Virus record (IMG/VR): IMGVR_UViG_3300006128_000045
Coordinates: 1-28,922 of that record
Length of the DNA stretch: 28,922 nt
From: a virus
Direction: 5' to 3' (one strand)
Shown: positions 1 to 5,861 of the stretch, piece by piece
How positions within the stretch are numbered: position 1 is the stretch's first letter
Layout: each line of letters opens with the position of its first letter
Program-made: the position numbers and the translations under genes
Notes under the pieces: generated by a model
What the model was told of the DNA's origin: nothing
Database searches by the model: none
What the model saw: the letters and a program-made list of their open reading frames with translations, nothing else

Positions 1-300
1 CATCACGCACCTACTAAATTGAGTACGCATGACCGATATAAGCACAAAGTACATGAACTAATGAACGGTGGCTACAGTAGCGACCTGAGTGAATTCATCA
101 TGGATCATCCTCAGATCAAATTGTGGACATGTGGTCACGTCCACGATCCTCATCTGTACTATATGGGTGATACTTTAGTGGCCGCAAATCCTAGGGGCTA
201 TGCTGGACACGACCCCGCGGCTGATTTGTTTGAATTGACTTATATTGATCTGGATAACATGCCAGAAAAATTCGACGGAGTCATTTGGACAAGAGAATAA
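1..300 (+). CDS. Metallophosphoesterase, C-terminal part (5' end outside window)
   Basis: The reading frame is open from the first base, so the gene starts before the window. The visible 99 residues begin HHAPT, the typical histidine motif of calcineurin-like phosphoesterases, and carry CGHVHDP near residues 38-44, which matches the GHxH metal-binding motif that closes the active site in this superfamily. The family hydrolyses phosphomono- or diesters with two bound metal ions; the substrate cannot be told from this fragment. The C-terminal half is short and soluble with no membrane segment. It ends six bases before the stop of the convergent homing endonuclease gene, with no clear terminator between them. 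The dimetal N-terminal motifs (DxH, GDxxD, GNH) would lie upstream and are not visible. Confidence 0.8.
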   Translation, partial: HHAPTKLSTHDRYKHKVHELMNGGYSSDLSEFIMDHPQIKLWTCGHVHDPHLYYMGDTLVAANPRGYAGHDPAADLFELTYIDLDNMPEKFDGVIWTRE

Positions 301-306
301 ATTGTA

Positions 307-1044
307 TTATTTATAATTTGGACAATTTTCTCCGTGCCATCTGAAAAGTTGTGGAGTACCCATAACTTTTCTACACACTATACAACTTGCTTTGTATTTC
401 CCTGGATCGAGTGTTCCATTGCGGCGCTTAGTATTCAGGGCCTTCTCTATACTTTCTTGCGTATTAGTATTAATAGTTCCGTTTTGAAGTCTAGTTTGTA
501 TTTGCTTTGATATACTTTCAGGAGTGGTAACGTTCATTTTTCCTAAGAGTTTTCTGGTTGCTAGCCCCTTCGCAATACTTTTCGGAGTAGTGTTATTCAG
601 TGTTCCATTTTTCTTTTTGGTTGCTAAACATTTTGCAATACTTTCTTCAGTTTGGTGATTTAATCCTAATTCAGCTCTGGTCTTTATCATTTTATCAATG
701 CTTTCTTTTTTAGGCCTAAGAGTACCATTTTTCTTTTTAGTTTCAATTGCTTTCTTTACCATATCACTCGTAGACCCACCGTCACCTGATTCAGGTTTAA
801 GGTTAGCCCAATCTTTACTCCCCACTACCTTCCATAATTCACTATAATGTAATCCCCATTGCTTAACCTCATCATTTGTTTGACATTCTTTTAATATTTC
901 CGTAGTAACATCATACCCATGCATCTTTATATGATTTGTCCATCGTATCCCGGAACCCTTATACCTATACGGATCTTGGGTTGTCTTGCATAGGTACTTT
1001 AACCCGGTTGTGTTATGGGTCTTAACCATTAGATAAATAGTCAT
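307..1044 (-). CDS. Putative free-standing homing endonuclease (GIY-YIG-like head, NUMOD3-like repeats, zinc knuckle)
   Basis: A 245-residue protein in three parts. Residues 1-80 (TIYLMVKTH, GLKYL, YKGSGIRW) resemble the head of GIY-YIG-like phage homing endonucleases. Residues 94-216 hold six tandem repeats of 20-21 residues with the pattern SI-x-K-x3-T-(K/R)-x2-NGTL, like NUMOD3 DNA-binding modules. The C-terminus has C221-x2-C224, H237 and C241, a likely zinc finger of the type that ends many phage homing endonucleases. Such enzymes cut intron-less or gene-less alleles and spread by repair. The gene runs against its + strand neighbours, as expected for an insertion. It has a good Shine-Dalgarno (AAGGAG) and a structured leader shared with the unrelated HNH gene at 4618-5223. 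The catalytic class is not certain, because the GIY and YIG triplets are degenerate. Confidence 0.65.
   Translation of the reverse strand: MTIYLMVKTHNTTGLKYLCKTTQDPYRYKGSGIRWTNHIKMHGYDVTTEILKECQTNDEVKQWGLHYSELWKVVGSKDWANLKPESGDGGSTSDMVKKAIETKKKNGTLRPKKESIDKMIKTRAELGLNHQTEESIAKCLATKKKNGTLNNTTPKSIAKGLATRKLLGKMNVTTPESISKQIQTRLQNGTINTNTQESIEKALNTKRRNGTLDPGKYKASCIVCRKVMGTPQLFRWHGENCPNYK
397..765 (-). repeat. Six tandem 60-63 bp coding repeats (NUMOD3-like modules)
   Basis: This part of the homing endonuclease gene encodes residues 94-216 as six successive modules. Each begins with SI or MV, then K, then T(K/R), and usually NGTL, for example SIAKCLATKKKNGTL and SIEKALNTKRRNGTL. The modules differ at many third positions and at exposed residues, so the expansion is not recent. 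Confidence 0.75.
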
Positions 1045-1060
1045 GCTGGTGCTCCTTTAT

Positions 1061-1113
1061 AGCGTTAGAGTGACTGGGGGAATTCAGGCTCCGCGAGTCA
1101 CACTTTATTTAGT
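1061..1113 (-). promoter_or_regulatory. Late-type promoter plus 5' hairpin leader of the homing endonuclease gene
   Basis: Read on the minus strand, the box ACTAAATA (1113-1106) is followed a few bases later by GTGACT (1101-1096), an inner stem GGAG/TTCC with a six-base loop, and AGTCAC (1075-1070), then the conserved TCTAACGC and the Shine-Dalgarno. The predicted late start lies at the first bases of the hairpin. The same arrangement, with different stem bases, precedes the HNH gene (5241-5292). Confidence 0.6.
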
Positions 1114-1163
1114 CTATTTTGTTTGAGTTAAAGTTTTTGGATATCTAATCGAAACAATATGTC

Positions 1164-1194
1164 CAATATATATTGTTGAACGATATTCAATATC
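1164..1194. promoter_or_regulatory. Two adjacent palindromes, possible operators
   Basis: CAATATATATTG at 1164-1175 is a perfect 12-base palindrome, and GATATT-C-AATATC at 1182-1194 is a 6+6 inverted repeat. They overlap the -35 region and spacer of the promoter for the winged-helix-like gene, where a repressor could act. Which protein binds, if any, is not known; autoregulation by the downstream gene product is one option. Confidence 0.4.
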
Positions 1195-1201
1195 ATATAA
1201 T
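1173..1201 (+). promoter_or_regulatory. Sigma70-type promoter for the winged-helix-like gene
   Basis: TTGTTG (1173-1178), a 17-base spacer and a perfect TATAAT (1196-1201). The expected start near 1208 falls directly before a hairpin at 1209-1224. Confidence 0.55.
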
Positions 1202-1208
1202 CTATGTA

Positions 1209-1224
1209 CATCGTGAAAACGATG
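1209..1224 (+). promoter_or_regulatory. 5'-terminal mRNA hairpin with GAAA loop
   Basis: CATCGT-GAAA-ACGATG forms six pairs closed by a GNRA tetraloop. It would sit at the very 5' end of the transcript, ten bases before the Shine-Dalgarno AAAGGAAG. In bacteria such 5' hairpins slow mRNA decay; that role here is inferred. Confidence 0.5.
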
Positions 1225-1244
1225 AATTATTTAAAGGAAGCAAA

Positions 1245-1517
1245 ATGGTATATACAATCAACAAGGGTACTAAAACCCACAAGTTGTTTTCAGCCTTGAA
1301 AGCTGGTGAGAAGATCAGTGCAAGTGAAGCACAACACCGCTTTGGTATCAAGAACATTGGTGCTGAAGCAAGCCGTATCCGTCAAGCAGGTTTCGCAGTC
1401 TATGCAAACACCCGCAAGGCAGGCAACGGTGTTCAGGTAACTGAATATGAAATCGGTCAACCAAGCCGCAAGTTGATTGCCGCAGGTTACAAGGCCTTGG
1501 CTTTAGGTCTAGTCTAA
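1245..1517 (+). CDS. Small winged-helix-like (HTH_39-type) DNA-binding protein
   Basis: The start chosen is ATG 1245, four bases after AAAGGAAG (1234-1240), giving 90 residues; an in-frame TTG at 1173 lies inside the promoter. Residues 10-60 (THKLFSALKAGEKISASEAQ, then FGIKN, IGAEASRIRQAGF, VYA) look like the helix-turn-helix/winged-helix fold (PF14090 type) seen in many phage and prophage proteins, with the basic helix ASRIRQ as recognition candidate. The C-terminus (SRKLIAAGYKALALGLV) is amphipathic. The codon use (CGC, CGT, GGT, AAC, AAG, GCC) is much more biased than in the neighbours. Together with a consensus promoter and a 5' hairpin this suggests high expression. It stands alone, with a terminator-like hairpin after it. 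DNA binding is inferred from the fold resemblance only. Confidence 0.75.
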   Translation: MVYTINKGTKTHKLFSALKAGEKISASEAQHRFGIKNIGAEASRIRQAGFAVYANTRKAGNGVQVTEYEIGQPSRKLIAAGYKALALGLV

Positions 1518-1536
1518 TTTAAAAAGACTATGAATG

Positions 1537-1560
1537 AAAAGGACAGTAATGTCCTTTTCC
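1537..1560 (+). terminator. Hairpin terminator after the winged-helix-like gene
   Basis: AAAAGGACA (1537-1545), loop GTAA, TGTCCTTTT (1550-1558). Nine pairs with a short U-run in the 3' arm; GC content is moderate, so termination may be partial. A new promoter follows at once. Confidence 0.6.
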
Positions 1561-1563
1561 TAC

Positions 1564-1592
1564 TTGCATTTAATTCAAAAGTATGTTATAAT
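1564..1592 (+). promoter_or_regulatory. Strong sigma70-type promoter for the cupin gene cluster
   Basis: TTGCAT (1564-1569), 17-base spacer, TATAAT (1587-1592), with an extended -10 TG at 1584-1585. The predicted start near 1599 leaves a 24-base leader containing TAGGAG. Confidence 0.75.
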
Positions 1593-1622
1593 AGTGTGTC
1601 GCAAATTATTTAGGAGCATTGT

Positions 1623-2141
1623 ATGGGATTGTTTCACAACATAATGAACAAGCTAGGTCGTTATCGATTGATTCCAGATCGACAAACTGGCGAAGATTAT
1701 TTGCATCGCTATTACTTGTTCCTAAAGGATCGTAAGTATTTCCCCTTCAATGTCACACTACACAAAATTGTTCGTAGTGATGACCCTATCATGCATGATC
1801 ATCCCTGGCCCTATTTGACAGTTGTTCTTAAAGGTGGTTACTGGGAACATACTCCTGTCTTTAATGATGAAGGCAAAATGTTTGCCGAGTTTAGTGTGTG
1901 GCGTGGTCCTGGTAGTATTATTAAGCGTGGTGCAAGTGAATTTCACTGGCTTGAACTTGATGAAGAGGTGGGTCCTGCTACTACATTATTCTTCATGGGT
2001 AAGCAACAGCGTGAGTGGGGATTTTTAGTGCAAGCAAAGAAGGGTATGCATCGTTGGGTCAAGTGGACTGATTACTTGACTGATTGGAAAAATTATCATC
2101 AAAAATATGTGGCTAAGGCTGCTAGCAAAAAGAAGGATTGA
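1623..2141 (+). CDS. Cupin-fold protein
   Basis: A 172-residue soluble protein. Residues 43-140 read as a cupin-like beta-barrel: TLHKIVRSDD, then MHDHPWPYLTVVLKGGYWE with H58, H60 and E75 as candidate metal ligands, GS-I-I-KRGASEFHWLEL with H108, and TTLFFMGKQQREWGF. This H-x-H...E...H pattern is the usual metal site of the RmlC-like cupins, whose members range from isomerases to dioxygenases; no substrate can be given. The start ATG 1623 follows TAGGAGCATTGT. It is the first gene of a long tightly coupled run (1623-4609) read from the promoter at 1564-1592. A phage-conserved protein is likely. Confidence 0.7.
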   Translation: MGLFHNIMNKLGRYRLIPDRQTGEDYLHRYYLFLKDRKYFPFNVTLHKIVRSDDPIMHDHPWPYLTVVLKGGYWEHTPVFNDEGKMFAEFSVWRGPGSIIKRGASEFHWLELDEEVGPATTLFFMGKQQREWGFLVQAKKGMHRWVKWTDYLTDWKNYHQKYVAKAASKKKD

Positions 2142-2143
2142 AA

Positions 2144-2413
2144 ATGTTTGATTGGTTTAAAAATAAGAAATCTGATAATGTATTCCCTTTCCCGGATCAC
2201 AGAGAGTATGGAATAGATGATAAACATGCATTGCCGTTACCTGAAATAAAGGCTCCAAAGCACGAACCTAAAGTTTACTACACACTTGGTCTTACCGATG
2301 ACAATCGTGTAAGTTTTACGATGGGTTATACTACACTTACAATGAATGATGTCGGTGTACAAGACTTGATTGACCAACTTGAGTTTTATAAAAGTAGAAT
2401 TGAAAATGAATGA
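2144..2413 (+). CDS. Conserved phage protein, 89 residues, unknown function
   Basis: The start ATG 2144 is preceded by AGAAGG (2131-2136) at good spacing, and only two bases separate it from the stop of the cupin gene. A basic N-terminus (MFDWFKNKKS) leads through a proline-rich linker to a compact C-terminal domain (YYTLGLTDDNRVSFTMGYTT, then LTMNDVGVQDLIDQLEFY), a pattern I recognise from many environmental myovirus genomes. No catalytic motif is visible. The final helix looks amphipathic and might mediate oligomerisation. The end of the gene overlaps the next start by eight bases. Confidence 0.7.
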   Translation: MFDWFKNKKSDNVFPFPDHREYGIDDKHALPLPEIKAPKHEPKVYYTLGLTDDNRVSFTMGYTTLTMNDVGVQDLIDQLEFYKSRIENE

Positions 2414-2744
2414 TAATATTAGAGCAGGTGCTGATATCCATGCAGGTGATGGTGGTTATAGTATAGGCACACAAGAAAAGTATGAGGAGTTCGCAAAGGC
2501 TCGCAATAAGTCATTGGGTAAGATGCGAATTAAAGAACTTGCTGAACAGGCTGATTATTATGCCTGCGAACAATATGGTGTGGAGAAGGTTCCATACAGC
2601 GTATTATTTAATCAAAAGTTCGCCGAGTTGATTGTTCAGGAATGCTTGGACCAATGCTATAATCGTGGTATGAACGATGAACTGTATGCTGGCCAGTTGA
2701 AAGCGGCGGCATATATCGAAGAACATTTCGGAGTTGAACGATGA
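2406..2744 (+). CDS. FAELIVREC-family small protein (112 residues)
   Basis: The start ATG 2406 is chosen because the downstream sequence begins MNDNIRAGAD and lies at the end of the previous gene; it overlaps that gene by eight bases. Family landmarks are MRIKELAEQAD (about 43-53), the core KFAELIVQECLDQC (about 75-88) and the terminal IEEHFGVER. The N-terminal 40 residues (IRAGADIHAGDGGYSIG) are an extra not found in the other family members of this window. Function is unknown. The last codons include GGAG, which serves as Shine-Dalgarno for the next gene, whose ATG overlaps this stop as ATGA. Confidence 0.75.
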   Translation: MNDNIRAGADIHAGDGGYSIGTQEKYEEFAKARNKSLGKMRIKELAEQADYYACEQYGVEKVPYSVLFNQKFAELIVQECLDQCYNRGMNDELYAGQLKAAAYIEEHFGVER

Positions 2745-2968
2745 AAGTCATTATTGAAAAACCGGATGGATCACCATATCTCACAGTAAGTGATGATAGA
2801 CTAATGGTGTCTGTTCAAATGCACGATTGTGTGTGGATAGGTGAGCCAGTAAAGATTCACTTTGACCGCAGAACCATACCAGCACTGATTGATGCGTTAA
2901 GCAGATTGAATCGTGGCGAACTTGACACAACCATTCGCACACACCACTTTAACCAGGATATAGAATGA
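2741..2968 (+). CDS. Unknown small protein (75 residues)
   Basis: ATGA overlap with the previous gene, whose HFGVER codons supply the Shine-Dalgarno. The protein is soluble with alternating strand-like segments (KVIIEKP, YLTVSDD, MVSVQMHD, VKIHF) and a final helix (IPALIDALSRLNRGEL). A small beta-sandwich followed by a helix is plausible. I do not recognise it. The stop overlaps the next start. Confidence 0.65.
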   Translation: MKVIIEKPDGSPYLTVSDDRLMVSVQMHDCVWIGEPVKIHFDRRTIPALIDALSRLNRGELDTTIRTHHFNQDIE

Positions 2969-3192
2969 AAAAGATACCAATGTTAGAACGGTTCGCCGCA
3001 CAAAGTCTTGTTGAATACGACGGTGAGTTGATATTCAGCAAAGAAAAGTTCGCCGAGTTGATTGTTCGGGAATGTATCGGATGTTGTGAACAAGTTATTA
3101 GTGATCCTGTCCCTAAATCAGTTGACACTTGGCTTAACGGTGGTTCTCAGTGTATTGACCAGATTAAGAAACATTTCGGAGTTGAAGAATGA
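2965..3192 (+). CDS. FAELIVREC-family small protein (75 residues)
   Basis: Short family member: MLERFAAQSLVE at the N-terminus, the core KFAELIVRECIGCCEQV in the middle, a variable polar stretch (DPVPKSVDTWLNGGSQ) and the conserved end IDQIKKHFGVEE. Three cysteines cluster in RECIGCC. The DNA of the core (TTCGCCGAGTTGATTGTTCG) is almost identical to that in the other copies on both strands, so copies have diverged recently or recombine. Its stop forms ATGA with the MazG-like gene. The function of the family is unknown. Confidence 0.75.
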   Translation: MKKIPMLERFAAQSLVEYDGELIFSKEKFAELIVRECIGCCEQVISDPVPKSVDTWLNGGSQCIDQIKKHFGVEE

Positions 3193-3470
3193 ATGAAGAT
3201 ACAAAAGAGATACTAACCATTCTACAAGAAGAATGTGCTGAGGTTATTGTAGAGGTCAGTAAGTGTTTTAGATTTGGTCCTGATCAAATGATGCAAGGTA
3301 AGGATGTATCAAACATTCAACGACTAGAAAAAGAACTTGGTGATCTACTTGCTATGGTAGAATTACTAGTAGATAAAAATATCGGAGTATCTACTGAAGG
3401 TCTCGAAATTGCATCAAAAGCTAAGTTTGAGAAGTTAAAAGAATGGTCTAATATCATTATCAATAAATAA
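3189..3470 (+). CDS. MazG-like nucleotide pyrophosphohydrolase
   Basis: 93 residues, all-alpha. Residues E14-E15-x2-E18 (EECAEVIVE) and E49-x2-D52 (KELGDLLA) reproduce the EExxE...ExxD magnesium site of the MazG/all-alpha NTP-PPase superfamily. These enzymes hydrolyse (d)NTPs, or alarmones in some phages, to monophosphates. Phage MazG is often thought to shape nucleotide pools or host stringent signalling. The size matches single-domain phage forms. The start overlaps the preceding FAELIVREC-family stop. It sits in the same run as dCMP deaminase further on, so a nucleotide-metabolism role is reasonable; the actual substrate is unknown. Confidence 0.75.
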   Translation: MNEDTKEILTILQEECAEVIVEVSKCFRFGPDQMMQGKDVSNIQRLEKELGDLLAMVELLVDKNIGVSTEGLEIASKAKFEKLKEWSNIIINK

Positions 3471-3473
3471 ATT

Positions 3474-3842
3474 ATGTTTGAAATTTTAGTCATTGGTGCT
3501 GTTTTTTGGTTAGGCTACCAATTAGGGTGTATTGTTACATCATGGAACCTTCGTGATATTATTCTTGATGCCGCAAAAAAACAAGGTATATACATTGACG
3601 AAGATGACAATTTGATCGAAAAGGATAACACACCTAATGTCTACAAATTATTCATCGAAAGGGTTAAAGATACACTGTATCTCTATAATAACGAAGAAGA
3701 ATTTGTATGCCAAGCATCAACAGTAGAAGAACTTGCTACATTAGCTAAAAAATACAATAATATCAAATATGCTGCCGTGCTATATGGTAATAATACATAT
3801 ATGTTTGTTGATGGTAGAGTAAAGGGATTAGATGAAAGTTAA
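3474..3842 (+). CDS. Membrane-anchored unknown protein (122 residues)
   Basis: Residues 2-23 (FEILVIGAVFWLGYQLGCIV) form one hydrophobic N-terminal segment, likely a signal anchor. The remainder is a charged soluble domain that includes YLYNNEEEFVCQASTVEELATLA and ends in a strand-turn-strand (AAVLYGNNTYMFVDGRV). Start ATG 3474, three bases after the previous stop; the Shine-Dalgarno is weak. The 3' end overlaps the next gene by 11 bases. Function unknown. Confidence 0.65.
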   Translation: MFEILVIGAVFWLGYQLGCIVTSWNLRDIILDAAKKQGIYIDEDDNLIEKDNTPNVYKLFIERVKDTLYLYNNEEEFVCQASTVEELATLAKKYNNIKYAAVLYGNNTYMFVDGRVKGLDES

Positions 3843-4368
3843 TATTACAGGCTGGGCCAATAAAAATAACAGAAGAAAAGTTGATGTTCAAATTCAAGCG
3901 CATGATACTTGGAATTTAGATAATACCCTTGCGCATATTATTTACCCAGCACTAGTACAACTTAAAGCAGAGAAGCATGGTGTCCCTAGTGAGTTCGCTG
4001 AGGTAGGCGGAGAAGATTTTGTCCAGCAAGAAAGTTTTGATTTTTATAGCGAAACATATGATGAAGCCTGGAAAAAGGGATTAGAACGATGGGATGAAAT
4101 ATTAGACAAAATGATTTGGTCCTTTGAACAGCTGGTAAAGGGTAATTACAATGACAAATATTTTCATGGGACAGCAGAATATGATTGGGTAAAATCCGAC
4201 AAAACATATCCAAATCCTATCACAGGCAAAATAGAGAAAACATATCAAATGGTAGATAAAAATCCTAATGATCATTGGTTTGATGATGTGGGTTTTAGAC
4301 TGCATGAAGAAAGAATTCAAGAAGGTCTTGAGTTGTTTGGTAAATATTATCGTAGTCTGTGGGATTGA
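3832..4368 (+). CDS. Conserved phage protein of 178 residues, unknown function
   Basis: Acidic, Trp- and Tyr-rich. It contains HDTWNLDNTLAHIIYPALVQLKA near residues 24-46 and RWDEILDKMIWSFEQLV near 86-102, a combination I recognise from hypothetical proteins of large myoviruses. No metal or nucleotide motif is evident. The start lies inside the end of the preceding gene (11-base overlap), with GGGATTAG just upstream as probable Shine-Dalgarno. Confidence 0.65.
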   Translation: MKVNITGWANKNNRRKVDVQIQAHDTWNLDNTLAHIIYPALVQLKAEKHGVPSEFAEVGGEDFVQQESFDFYSETYDEAWKKGLERWDEILDKMIWSFEQLVKGNYNDKYFHGTAEYDWVKSDKTYPNPITGKIEKTYQMVDKNPNDHWFDDVGFRLHEERIQEGLELFGKYYRSLWD

Positions 4369-4369
4369 T

Positions 4370-4609
4370 ATGTTTGATAAAATGGCAGAGCAGTTAAAGG
4401 TTCAAACCTTAGGCAAAGGTAAGAAAAATTTTACAATTACCAATCAAGAGTTTGAAGATTTTTGTAAAGGATTCTTGTTTGAACAAATAAAGGGAAATAC
4501 TAAATTAGGAGTAGCGTTTTGTGAAAAATACAACGAGCCTAATTATGTACTAAGTATATTACCCGACAAAGCAGCTAAAGCACATATTAAAAAATTCTAT
4601 GTAAGATGA
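4370..4609 (+). CDS. Unknown small protein (79 residues)
   Basis: ATG 4370 is preferred over upstream in-frame codons inside the previous gene; it begins one base after that gene's stop. The protein (MFDKMAEQLKVQTLGKGKKN, ending IKKFYVR) is basic and helical with a short aromatic-rich middle (FEDFCKGFLFEQ). No family is recognised. It is the last + strand gene before the inverted HNH gene; their stops are 8 bases apart, so transcripts converge here without a visible terminator. Confidence 0.55.
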   Translation: MFDKMAEQLKVQTLGKGKKNFTITNQEFEDFCKGFLFEQIKGNTKLGVAFCEKYNEPNYVLSILPDKAAKAHIKKFYVR

Positions 4610-4617
4610 AACAAAAG

Positions 4618-5223
4618 TTAGATTGTTACTTTCCAAGAACTAACTGTTTTTCTATTACCTTTAATTACTTCACCTAAATTGCCATGATTTATATTATATT
4701 TTTTACAAAATTCGTTTCTAGTCATTGAAACCGTTTCTTTCGTTTTTATGTTAGTAAATATGTAAATAGTATGGTCAAACTTCCAATTATTCTTCCCCAA
4801 CAAATGATGTTCTCCTGATGCTATTCGTTTAAGTTGAATAGTGCGTTGCATAGTACCATTTCCTAAAAAAGGATGTGTACCTTCTAATACTCTTTTATTT
4901 TGAAGATTGCTCCCCACAAATGCATTTTTTCCATTAATAATTTGTTTTAATACATTGAGTTTTGCAATATCTGATATTTCCTGCGGAGTTTTATTCATAC
5001 GTTGAATAGCAATTAGATAACATGCATAATAATCTTTTTGCAAAAAATGAATATCATAATGTTCTTGGATAGTGATTGCTATTAAGTTACATGGATTATT
5101 ATTGTTGTGATTTCCATCATGATGATGAATTTCATAACTTCTACCATTTGATTCTTTTGGAATCGGTCCGTGATGATTTTCGTATATTTTACGATAGTTG
5201 GTTGTATTACAATAAATACACAT
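4618..5223 (-). CDS. HNH homing endonuclease (free-standing)
   Basis: 201 residues. C2-x2-C5 opens a likely zinc knuckle, and residues 30-60 carry the HNH core: YEIHHHDGNHNNNNPCNLIA followed by TIQEHYDIHF. This is the standard pattern in phage HNH homing endonucleases, which nick or cut DNA using one metal ion. The C-terminal 30 residues (MTRNEFCKKYNINHGNLGEV, then KGNRKTVSSWKV) look like a NUMOD1-type helix-turn-helix for target recognition. The gene is inserted against the surrounding + strand operon. It shares a promoter/leader block with the unrelated gene at 307-1044. Confidence 0.88.
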   Translation of the reverse strand: MCIYCNTTNYRKIYENHHGPIPKESNGRSYEIHHHDGNHNNNNPCNLIAITIQEHYDIHFLQKDYYACYLIAIQRMNKTPQEISDIAKLNVLKQIINGKNAFVGSNLQNKRVLEGTHPFLGNGTMQRTIQLKRIASGEHHLLGKNNWKFDHTIYIFTNIKTKETVSMTRNEFCKKYNINHGNLGEVIKGNRKTVSSWKVTI

Positions 5224-5240
5224 GCTGATTGCTCCTTGTA

Positions 5241-5292
5241 AGCGTTAGAGTAGTTGGGAACTCCAATTCCGCGAACTACACATTTATTTATT
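5241..5292 (-). promoter_or_regulatory. Late-type promoter plus 5' hairpin leader of the HNH gene
   Basis: On the minus strand: AATAAATA (5292-5285), then GTAGTT (5279-5274), CGC, an inner stem GGAA/TTCC with a six-base loop, AACTAC (5255-5250), TCTAACGC and AAGGAG. Compared with 1061-1113 the outer stem changes from GTGACT/AGTCAC to GTAGTT/AACTAC, keeping pairing, and the inner stem changes G-U to A-U. Confidence 0.6.
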
Positions 5293-5321
5293 CCATTTGA
5301 ATAGATTTGTATAACATAATG

Positions 5322-5330
5322 TGTTATAAT
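5322..5330 (+). promoter_or_regulatory. Extended -10 promoter of the dCMP deaminase gene
   Basis: TG-T-TATAAT with the perfect hexamer at 5325-5330. No good -35 is present at 17 bases (TAGATT). The ATG at 5337 lies six bases downstream, where transcription should begin. Confidence 0.6.
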
Positions 5331-5336
5331 ATTAAT

Positions 5337-5861
5337 ATGATAAAAAAGAAATTTATAGATTATTACATGGATGTAGCAGACAGAACAAGCAAATTATCCA
5401 CTGCGATTCGCAGACAAGTAGGTGCAGTCATTGTTAAGGACAATCGTATTCTAAGTTATGGTTATAACGGTATGCCAACAGGATGGGATAACACTTGCGA
5501 GTATAAAGACTATATGAATGCGGCAAAAGCAGGATTCATGCCACAAGCAGATATGCTAGAAAAGTTTCCATACGAAGAATATGATGTAGAAGTAGGTGCT
5601 AATCGTAGATATCGTTTAGTTACCAAAGATGAGGTACTTCACGCTGAAATGAACTGCCTAATGAAGGTGGCCCAAGGTACTGAGAGTAGCACAGGATCAA
5701 CTTTATTCACAACTGACGCCCCATGCATTCATTGTGCTAAAGCAATCTTTCAATCAGGCATTAAAAGTATTTTCTACCGTGACACATACAGAGATGAGGC
5801 GGGGGTAGAATTTTTAACAAAAGGCGGAGTTAGTGTCACCAGATACCCAGTTCAAGGCTGA
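5337..5861 (+). CDS. Deoxycytidylate (dCMP) deaminase
   Basis: 174 residues from ATG 5337. The zinc site is intact: H102-A-E104 (LHAEMNC) and PC130-x2-C133 (APCIHCAKA), the hallmark of the cytidine/dCMP deaminase superfamily, with E104 as proton shuttle. The N-terminal DRTSKLSTAIRRQVGAVIVK and SYGYNGMP segments are typical of dCMP deaminases, which supply dUMP for dTMP synthesis. The length fits phage T4-type and host enzymes. There is no Shine-Dalgarno before 5337 and the -10 box ends six bases upstream, so the mRNA may be leaderless. Earlier in-frame codons (5307, 5319) lie within the promoter. The end overlaps the next gene by 29 bases. Confidence 0.92.
   Translation: MIKKKFIDYYMDVADRTSKLSTAIRRQVGAVIVKDNRILSYGYNGMPTGWDNTCEYKDYMNAAKAGFMPQADMLEKFPYEEYDVEVGANRRYRLVTKDEVLHAEMNCLMKVAQGTESSTGSTLFTTDAPCIHCAKAIFQSGIKSIFYRDTYRDEAGVEFLTKGGVSVTRYPVQG

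Follow-up and report, generated by a model that had tools for sequence, protein, structure and literature searches.

Why would two unrelated homing endonuclease genes (HEGs) on the minus strand of one viral DNA carry the same leader? The question is raised by the window analyzed here, the 28,922 nucleotides of IMG/VR record IMGVR_UViG_3300006128_000045. An earlier note, made from the letters of this DNA, had described the same ordered elements upstream of both genes and had offered three roles for them, namely protection of the mRNA, regulation of translation, or travel with the genes as part of a mobile unit.

Shared block upstream of two endonuclease genes

The ordered block is indeed found at both minus-strand loci. 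The motif TCTAACGC, which occurs exactly twice in the window, lies at 1062-1069 and 5242-5249, the bases of the hairpin lie at approximately 1070-1101 and 5250-5279, and AAGGAG and CAGCATG are present at each. The described switch of the outer stem from GTGACT/AGTCAC to GTAGTT/AACTAC is correct, and pairing is retained despite sequence change in 67 diverse copies, with 208 double-sided compensatory cells compared to 62 after shuffling. A covariance model of the block, the check that the note had proposed, scores the two window copies at 89.9 and 77.5 bits and, run on phage sequences, finds more than 100 others, so that the further covarying examples on which the idea had been staked do exist. 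The likeness of the two blocks is therefore not a matter of chance. The protein labels of the note hold roughly: HEG 2 encodes an HNH protein (HNH_3, I-TevIII-like, 36-38% identity), and the GIY-YIG-like label of HEG 1 is a reading by eye. The features of the two loci are as follows.

307-1044, minus strand: HEG 1, GIY-YIG-like and of the KTHN...TGLKYL class by eye, no Pfam hit
1034-1039, plus strand: TAAATA box for the antisense strand, in HEG 1 codons 2-4 (sense TATTTA)
1045-1101, plus strand: predicted antisense RNA element 1, predicted 5' end G1045, 5 nt past the box
1046-1053 with 1061-1068, plus strand: hairpin II' of element 1, anti-SD CTCCTT at the loop
1070-1101, plus strand: hairpin I' of element 1
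1102-1111, plus strand: U-rich, terminator-like tail following hairpin I', ACTTTATTTA, complementary to the sense promoter box
1106-1113, minus strand: putative sense late-promoter box of HEG 1, ACTAAATA, with the insertion edge within a few nt
4618-5223, minus strand: HEG 2, HNH_3, I-TevIII-like
5213-5218, plus strand: TAAATA box for the antisense strand, within HEG 2 codons 2-4
5224-5279, plus strand: predicted antisense RNA element 2, predicted 5' end G5224
5225-5233 with 5241-5248, plus strand: hairpin II' of element 2, one bulge
5250-5279, plus strand: hairpin I' of element 2
5280-5290, plus strand: U-rich tail after hairpin I' of element 2
5285-5292, minus strand: putative sense late-promoter box of HEG 2, AATAAATA

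Distribution and anatomy of the element

The element measures roughly 90 bases and is found in many large T4-like phages. A first pattern scan of IMG/VR with TCGCGGA..TCTAACGC yielded dozens of copies in which the parts follow the same order, along with chance matches, and two tighter scans enlarged the set to at least 173 distinct copies in at least 164 loci. With a covariance model (R1) built from 67 copies, two phage contigs (361 kb and 333 kb) show 13 copies apiece, a third (142 kb) shows 12, and the isolate Rhizobium phage RHph_I1_18 shows one. DNA similarity among isolate phages gave this phage as the only real case; in its single copy (MN988519.1, 80287-80377), hairpin II is divergent and the spacing is longer. 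The gene behind this copy (QIG70688.1, 'hypothetical protein') is of the YYGVRFA HEG class, with a TTG as its probable start. Matches in S-SSM4 and S-SSM6b fall in unannotated stretches beside a tRNA-Val gene, and those in bacterial genomes were judged to be chance from the record titles and the size of 257 Gb. No copy was found in T4, S-PM2, LIMEstone1, Aeh1, Aeromonas phage 25 or one Vibrio phage; covariance model R2 gave no match in T4, Aeh1 or Aeromonas phage 25, and no Rfam covariance model matched the element. The open-access literature yielded no report of a conserved antisense-folding element common to HEG families. The element is thus real and widespread, and as an RNA class it seems not to have been described.

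Read in the direction of the HEG, the element begins with a TAAATA box, 3-5 nt of spacing, an outer stem, a CRC/Y internal loop, and an inner stem with its loop, and continues with the return of the outer stem, TCTA, a short stem whose loop contains the SD, CAGC, the ATG and TATTTA. The TAAATA late-promoter box lies directly upstream of the HEG in the large majority of the copies listed. Across 171 copies, information content rises from ~0.1 to 1.9 bits at this box, and no clear conservation is seen upstream of it; a conserved TGTCAA in that region was considered and set aside as weak and unpositioned.

Endonuclease genes and carrier phages

Nearly every copy precedes a HEG (153/163 closed ORFs ≥100 aa, among the copies listed). 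What the note had seen at two loci, a block common to unrelated HEGs, extends to the whole set, as the downstream proteins come from endonuclease families that are not homologous to each other. They comprise GIY-YIG proteins of several types, SegE-like ones among them, HNH_3 and other HNH proteins, TnsA-like/PD-(D/E)XK proteins, and NUMOD3-only proteins. Most ORFs are intact, and most of the shorter ORFs behind copies contain HEG remnants. The element is not required, since about half of the HEG-like ORFs in two carriers are without it. Orphan or decayed copies with no detectable HEG occur at four loci (L449, L475, L476 and L490) in two related phage contigs, two of them retaining hairpin I and the tail.

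By gene content, the carriers are T4-superfamily phages; a gp55-type late sigma is present in 10 of 14, and the gp23 capsid protein is above the cut-off in 9 of 14. RegA was rejected as a common trans-acting repressor, being present in only three of these 14 carriers. The window itself probably represents one piece of a jumbo phage genome, because relatives of its neighborhood (L529, L530 and L535) are found on contigs of 350-525 kb. A third leader and HEG, just upstream of the position where the window starts, occur in a relative that is nearly identical to it (L607/L640, ~1130-1220).

Conserved folding on the strand opposite the gene

In the sense orientation the stems covary clearly, and the exceptions in the 67-copy alignment are A.C in 191 cases versus G.U in 22. 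The antisense reading has G.U in 157 cases versus A.C in 12. As an A.C in sense is a G.U in antisense, the selected fold is assigned to the strand opposite the HEG. Part of the A.C total is fixed by the search pattern, in which CTCTAACGC and CAGC are constant within hairpin II, and the outer stem was for this reason counted separately, using only copies retrieved with the hairpin II pattern or the covariance model, whose outer stems are unconstrained by the search. These outer stems have no sense G.U and 19 sense A.C (p ~4e-6, among related sequences that are not independent). In the antisense reading of 55 copies, 97.1% of cells are paired across 20 pairs, with 201 double-changed cells compared to 50.7 after shuffling and a covariation of 0.559 compared to 0.206 after shuffling and at most 0.124 in slid controls.

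The antisense strand also folds better, with an MFE of -17.9 versus -13.6 in sense (lower in antisense in 150/164 among the copies listed) and a mean z of -2.13 versus -1.35. In the window, the conserved folding sits on the plus strand, and the sense-strand hairpins alone are not unusually stable (z -0.76 and -1.08). The wobble asymmetry and the folding energies therefore point away from the first role offered, a leader hairpin that protects the HEG mRNA, and towards the opposite strand. More generally, wobble asymmetry can tell which strand of an RNA motif is the working one.

Hairpin II' forms a helix of eight pairs, the third of them an invariant G.U, and its loop holds the anti-SD CUCCUU, the complement of the SD region in the target mRNA. 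The corresponding sense stem is interrupted, leaving the SD fairly open; the SD lies within a covarying hairpin, and stem variants are altered on both sides. The sense A.C mismatches of hairpin II could in part reflect selection keeping the SD open. Stable, selected hairpins, as in an element of the RNA-OUT type, are thus present on the antisense strand. In alignment A2 (columns 32-41), the loop-closing pair of hairpin I alternates between C.A and U.G, and since these are isosteric wobbles, this suggests a fixed loop geometry.

A putative second late-promoter box within the endonuclease genes

TATTTA lies at most 16 nt past the ATG in 143 of the 170 HEGs among the copies listed, compared to 13 of 5371 windows (0.24%) elsewhere in the same ORFs. 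All three reading frames are used (105, 21 and 17 cases), and codon 2 ends in T regardless of the amino acid, a test partly conditioned on the match itself. A protein-level IY motif is excluded by the use of three frames and by the T at the third position of codon 2. TATTTA is not a general feature of late genes either, as it occurs in two of 127 other box-bearing genes of three carriers. On the opposite strand it reads TAAATA, usually ~5 nt from the G at the base of hairpin II', and this gap of 5 nt equals the usual gap between the sense box and hairpin I. A conserved TAAATA is thus found, in three frames, at the position expected for a promoter directed against the HEG, and the simplest reading is that TATTTA represents a second late promoter of this kind.

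Inserted units and exchange or homogenization of leaders

Flanking-gene searches for empty sites found many relatives of the window without the HEGs; comparison of four carrier genomes with each other yielded few close empty sites. The two insertions are as follows.

239-1119: unit inserted at site A, edges approximate, not present in relatives
4622-5347: unit inserted at site B, edges approximate; it splits a deaminase gene at the 5' end and provides a new start

At site A, the sequence of empty relatives is GCAGATGTGTTTGAGTTAAAG; in the window, the match to them picks up again at TGTTTGAGTTAAAG, a few nt outside the sense box, which puts the end of the unit at the box. At site B, the deaminase gene is interrupted at its start, between ATGAAACAAAA and AATTTATAGA, by a unit that extends ~45 nt past the box and ends with a new ATG. 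As judged from these junctions, box and leader lie inside the inserted unit at both sites, and at the unit edge in one, which supports the mobile-unit idea. The insertions have altered their neighbors as well: the site B unit brings a TATAAT-like sequence along with the new ATG for the interrupted deaminase gene (window 5293-5347), and at site A the C-terminal end of the neighboring upstream gene was replaced, with the unit supplying a new tail (window 236-300) and the old tail persisting as a remnant after the leader.

The idea of travel with the gene does not extend to the leader sequence itself, which follows the phage genome and not the HEG family. Among 64 copies in large genomes, leaders within one genome are more alike, even across HEG classes (hairpin I; 1 of 1000 permutations as high), and the same HEG class across genomes shows no excess leader similarity. 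Because leader similarity tracks the genome in this manner, leaders are, on this evidence, exchanged or homogenized within genomes and not strictly inherited with the gene.

Predicted antisense control and its alternatives

We propose that the element is a portable control unit of free-standing T4-superfamily HEGs, in which convergent late promoters and an antisense RNA of ~65 nt would lower HEG translation, a reading to which we assign a probability of about 0.55. The two TAAATA boxes, facing each other ~75 bp apart, would both act as late promoters, the sense box driving the HEG mRNA and the antisense box, within HEG codons 2-4, driving opposite transcription from beside the start codon. The predicted RNA would consist of a 5' hairpin presenting the anti-SD in its loop, a second hairpin after which it would end, and a U-rich tail. 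Being complementary to the HEG 5' UTR, it would cover the SD and thereby reduce translation of the HEG. Of the three roles first offered, regulation of translation remains the likeliest purpose, via an antisense RNA and not via a hairpin in cis. The tail is U-rich only (55% T versus 36% further on), with no canonical U run, and a terminator scan of the copies remained at chance level.

If the antisense RNA is real, phage HEGs would have a transposon-like copy control, and the tolerance of a phage for a dozen DNA-cutting parasites becomes testable. An extension of this model is tentative and in our view doubtful: the cassette, interchangeable among unrelated endonuclease genes and homogenized within individual phage genomes, might allow resident HEGs to silence each other and incoming HEGs, amounting to a genome-wide copy-number control of phage parasites.

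A different and unlikely explanation is an insulator or terminator, at which transcripts running against the HEG would end at hairpin I' and the U-rich tail with no free antisense regulator being made. The position of the tail directly after hairpin I', an upstream neighbor on the opposite strand at 96 of 158 loci among the copies listed, and one orphan copy that retains hairpin I and the tail without a detectable HEG are all compatible with this function. However, the conserved antisense TAAATA, hairpin II' and its invariant G.U are left unexplained, and the tail is interrupted (UUUUAUUUA).

The model of the earlier note, a structured HEG 5' UTR in which a hairpin at the 5' terminus gives stability and one at the SD serves translation, is quite improbable in light of the sense stems, which have A.C instead of G.U and fold more poorly (z -1.35 versus -2.13), although the position of the sense box does make the mRNA begin at the base of hairpin I, covariation holds in sense too, and such hairpins are used by T4 late genes and HEGs (PMC2988022, PMC3014915).

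We consider it very unlikely that the element acts as DNA, whether a recombinase or a replication protein recognizes the folded single strand or the element is a handle by which recombination swaps HEGs. G.T pairs are tolerated in DNA as well, leaders are homogenized within genomes, and GCGTTAGA resembles an integron core site, but its AACGC part covaries with its partner, the other end of the unit has no hairpin (at site B the HEG stop is ~4 nt from the junction), and the two promoter boxes find no explanation. An integron attC is rejected, as the fixed core GTTRRRY is absent and the core region varies compensatorily and ends in G, not Y; an IS200/IS605-like element, with a hairpin at both ends, has no room at the 3' end of the site B HEG.

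Least probable of all is the logic of T4 I-TevI, by which T4 HEGs are regulated (PMC2988022) and in which UAAAUA would pair with UAUUUA in read-through transcripts to hide SD and AUG, late transcripts being without the 5' arm: the two boxes are complementary, but they do not covary (6.89 versus 6.87 pairs shuffled), their median pairing probability is 0.008, SD and AUG are no less accessible than with shuffled upstream sequence, and most loci have no same-strand upstream gene; sequestration by box pairing is not supported by these results.

Relation to known regulatory systems

The function predicted from these sequences is best called antisense control of a mobile gene. IS10 RNA-IN/RNA-OUT and IS200 art200 are examples of antisense control of a transposase. 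The element resembles IS10 RNA-OUT in its association with a mobile gene, in the predicted convergent outward promoter near the start codon, and in the short structured antisense RNA predicted to cover the mRNA 5' end and SD. In contrast to IS10 with its sigma-70 promoters, it resides in T4-like phages with TAAATA boxes, is common to non-homologous endonuclease families, and has no sequence match there. Type I toxin-antitoxin systems such as symE/symR likewise have a cis-antisense RNA that covers the SD of a potentially harmful gene, as predicted here; the target is a small toxin there and a mobile endonuclease here. In the present case, many large phages use one structured element for several unrelated nuclease families, with the selected structure on the opposite strand.

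Among phages, an antisense RNA called CfrI extends across a HEG and psbA in cyanophage S-PM2 (PMC2984593). It shares with the RNA predicted here its direction against a HEG in a T4-like phage, but it is ~225 nt long and links psbA with the HEG (PMC2984593), and the element is unmatched in S-PM2. T4 HEGs are equipped with individual hairpins that hide the RBS and are fed by a late promoter; in Seg43(25) of Aeromonas phage 25, a hairpin precedes the RBS (PMC2988022, PMC3014915). I-TevI, II and III, SegB and Aeh1 MobE resemble the present genes as T4-like HEGs with the late box TATAAATA just upstream and RNA structure at the SD; in contrast, the hairpins of T4 and Aeh1 HEGs are known singly, lie on the sense strand and depend on read-through (PMC2988022). 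Regulation of T4 HEGs was previously known case by case, with unrelated hairpins, whereas here one element is common to several unrelated families. Among the HEG-like ORFs without the element, one at ~60475 (plus strand) in G008 (L502) has another hairpin, GTATGAT..ATCATAC, between its TAAATA box and ATG, and other 5' hairpin designs of this kind may exist.
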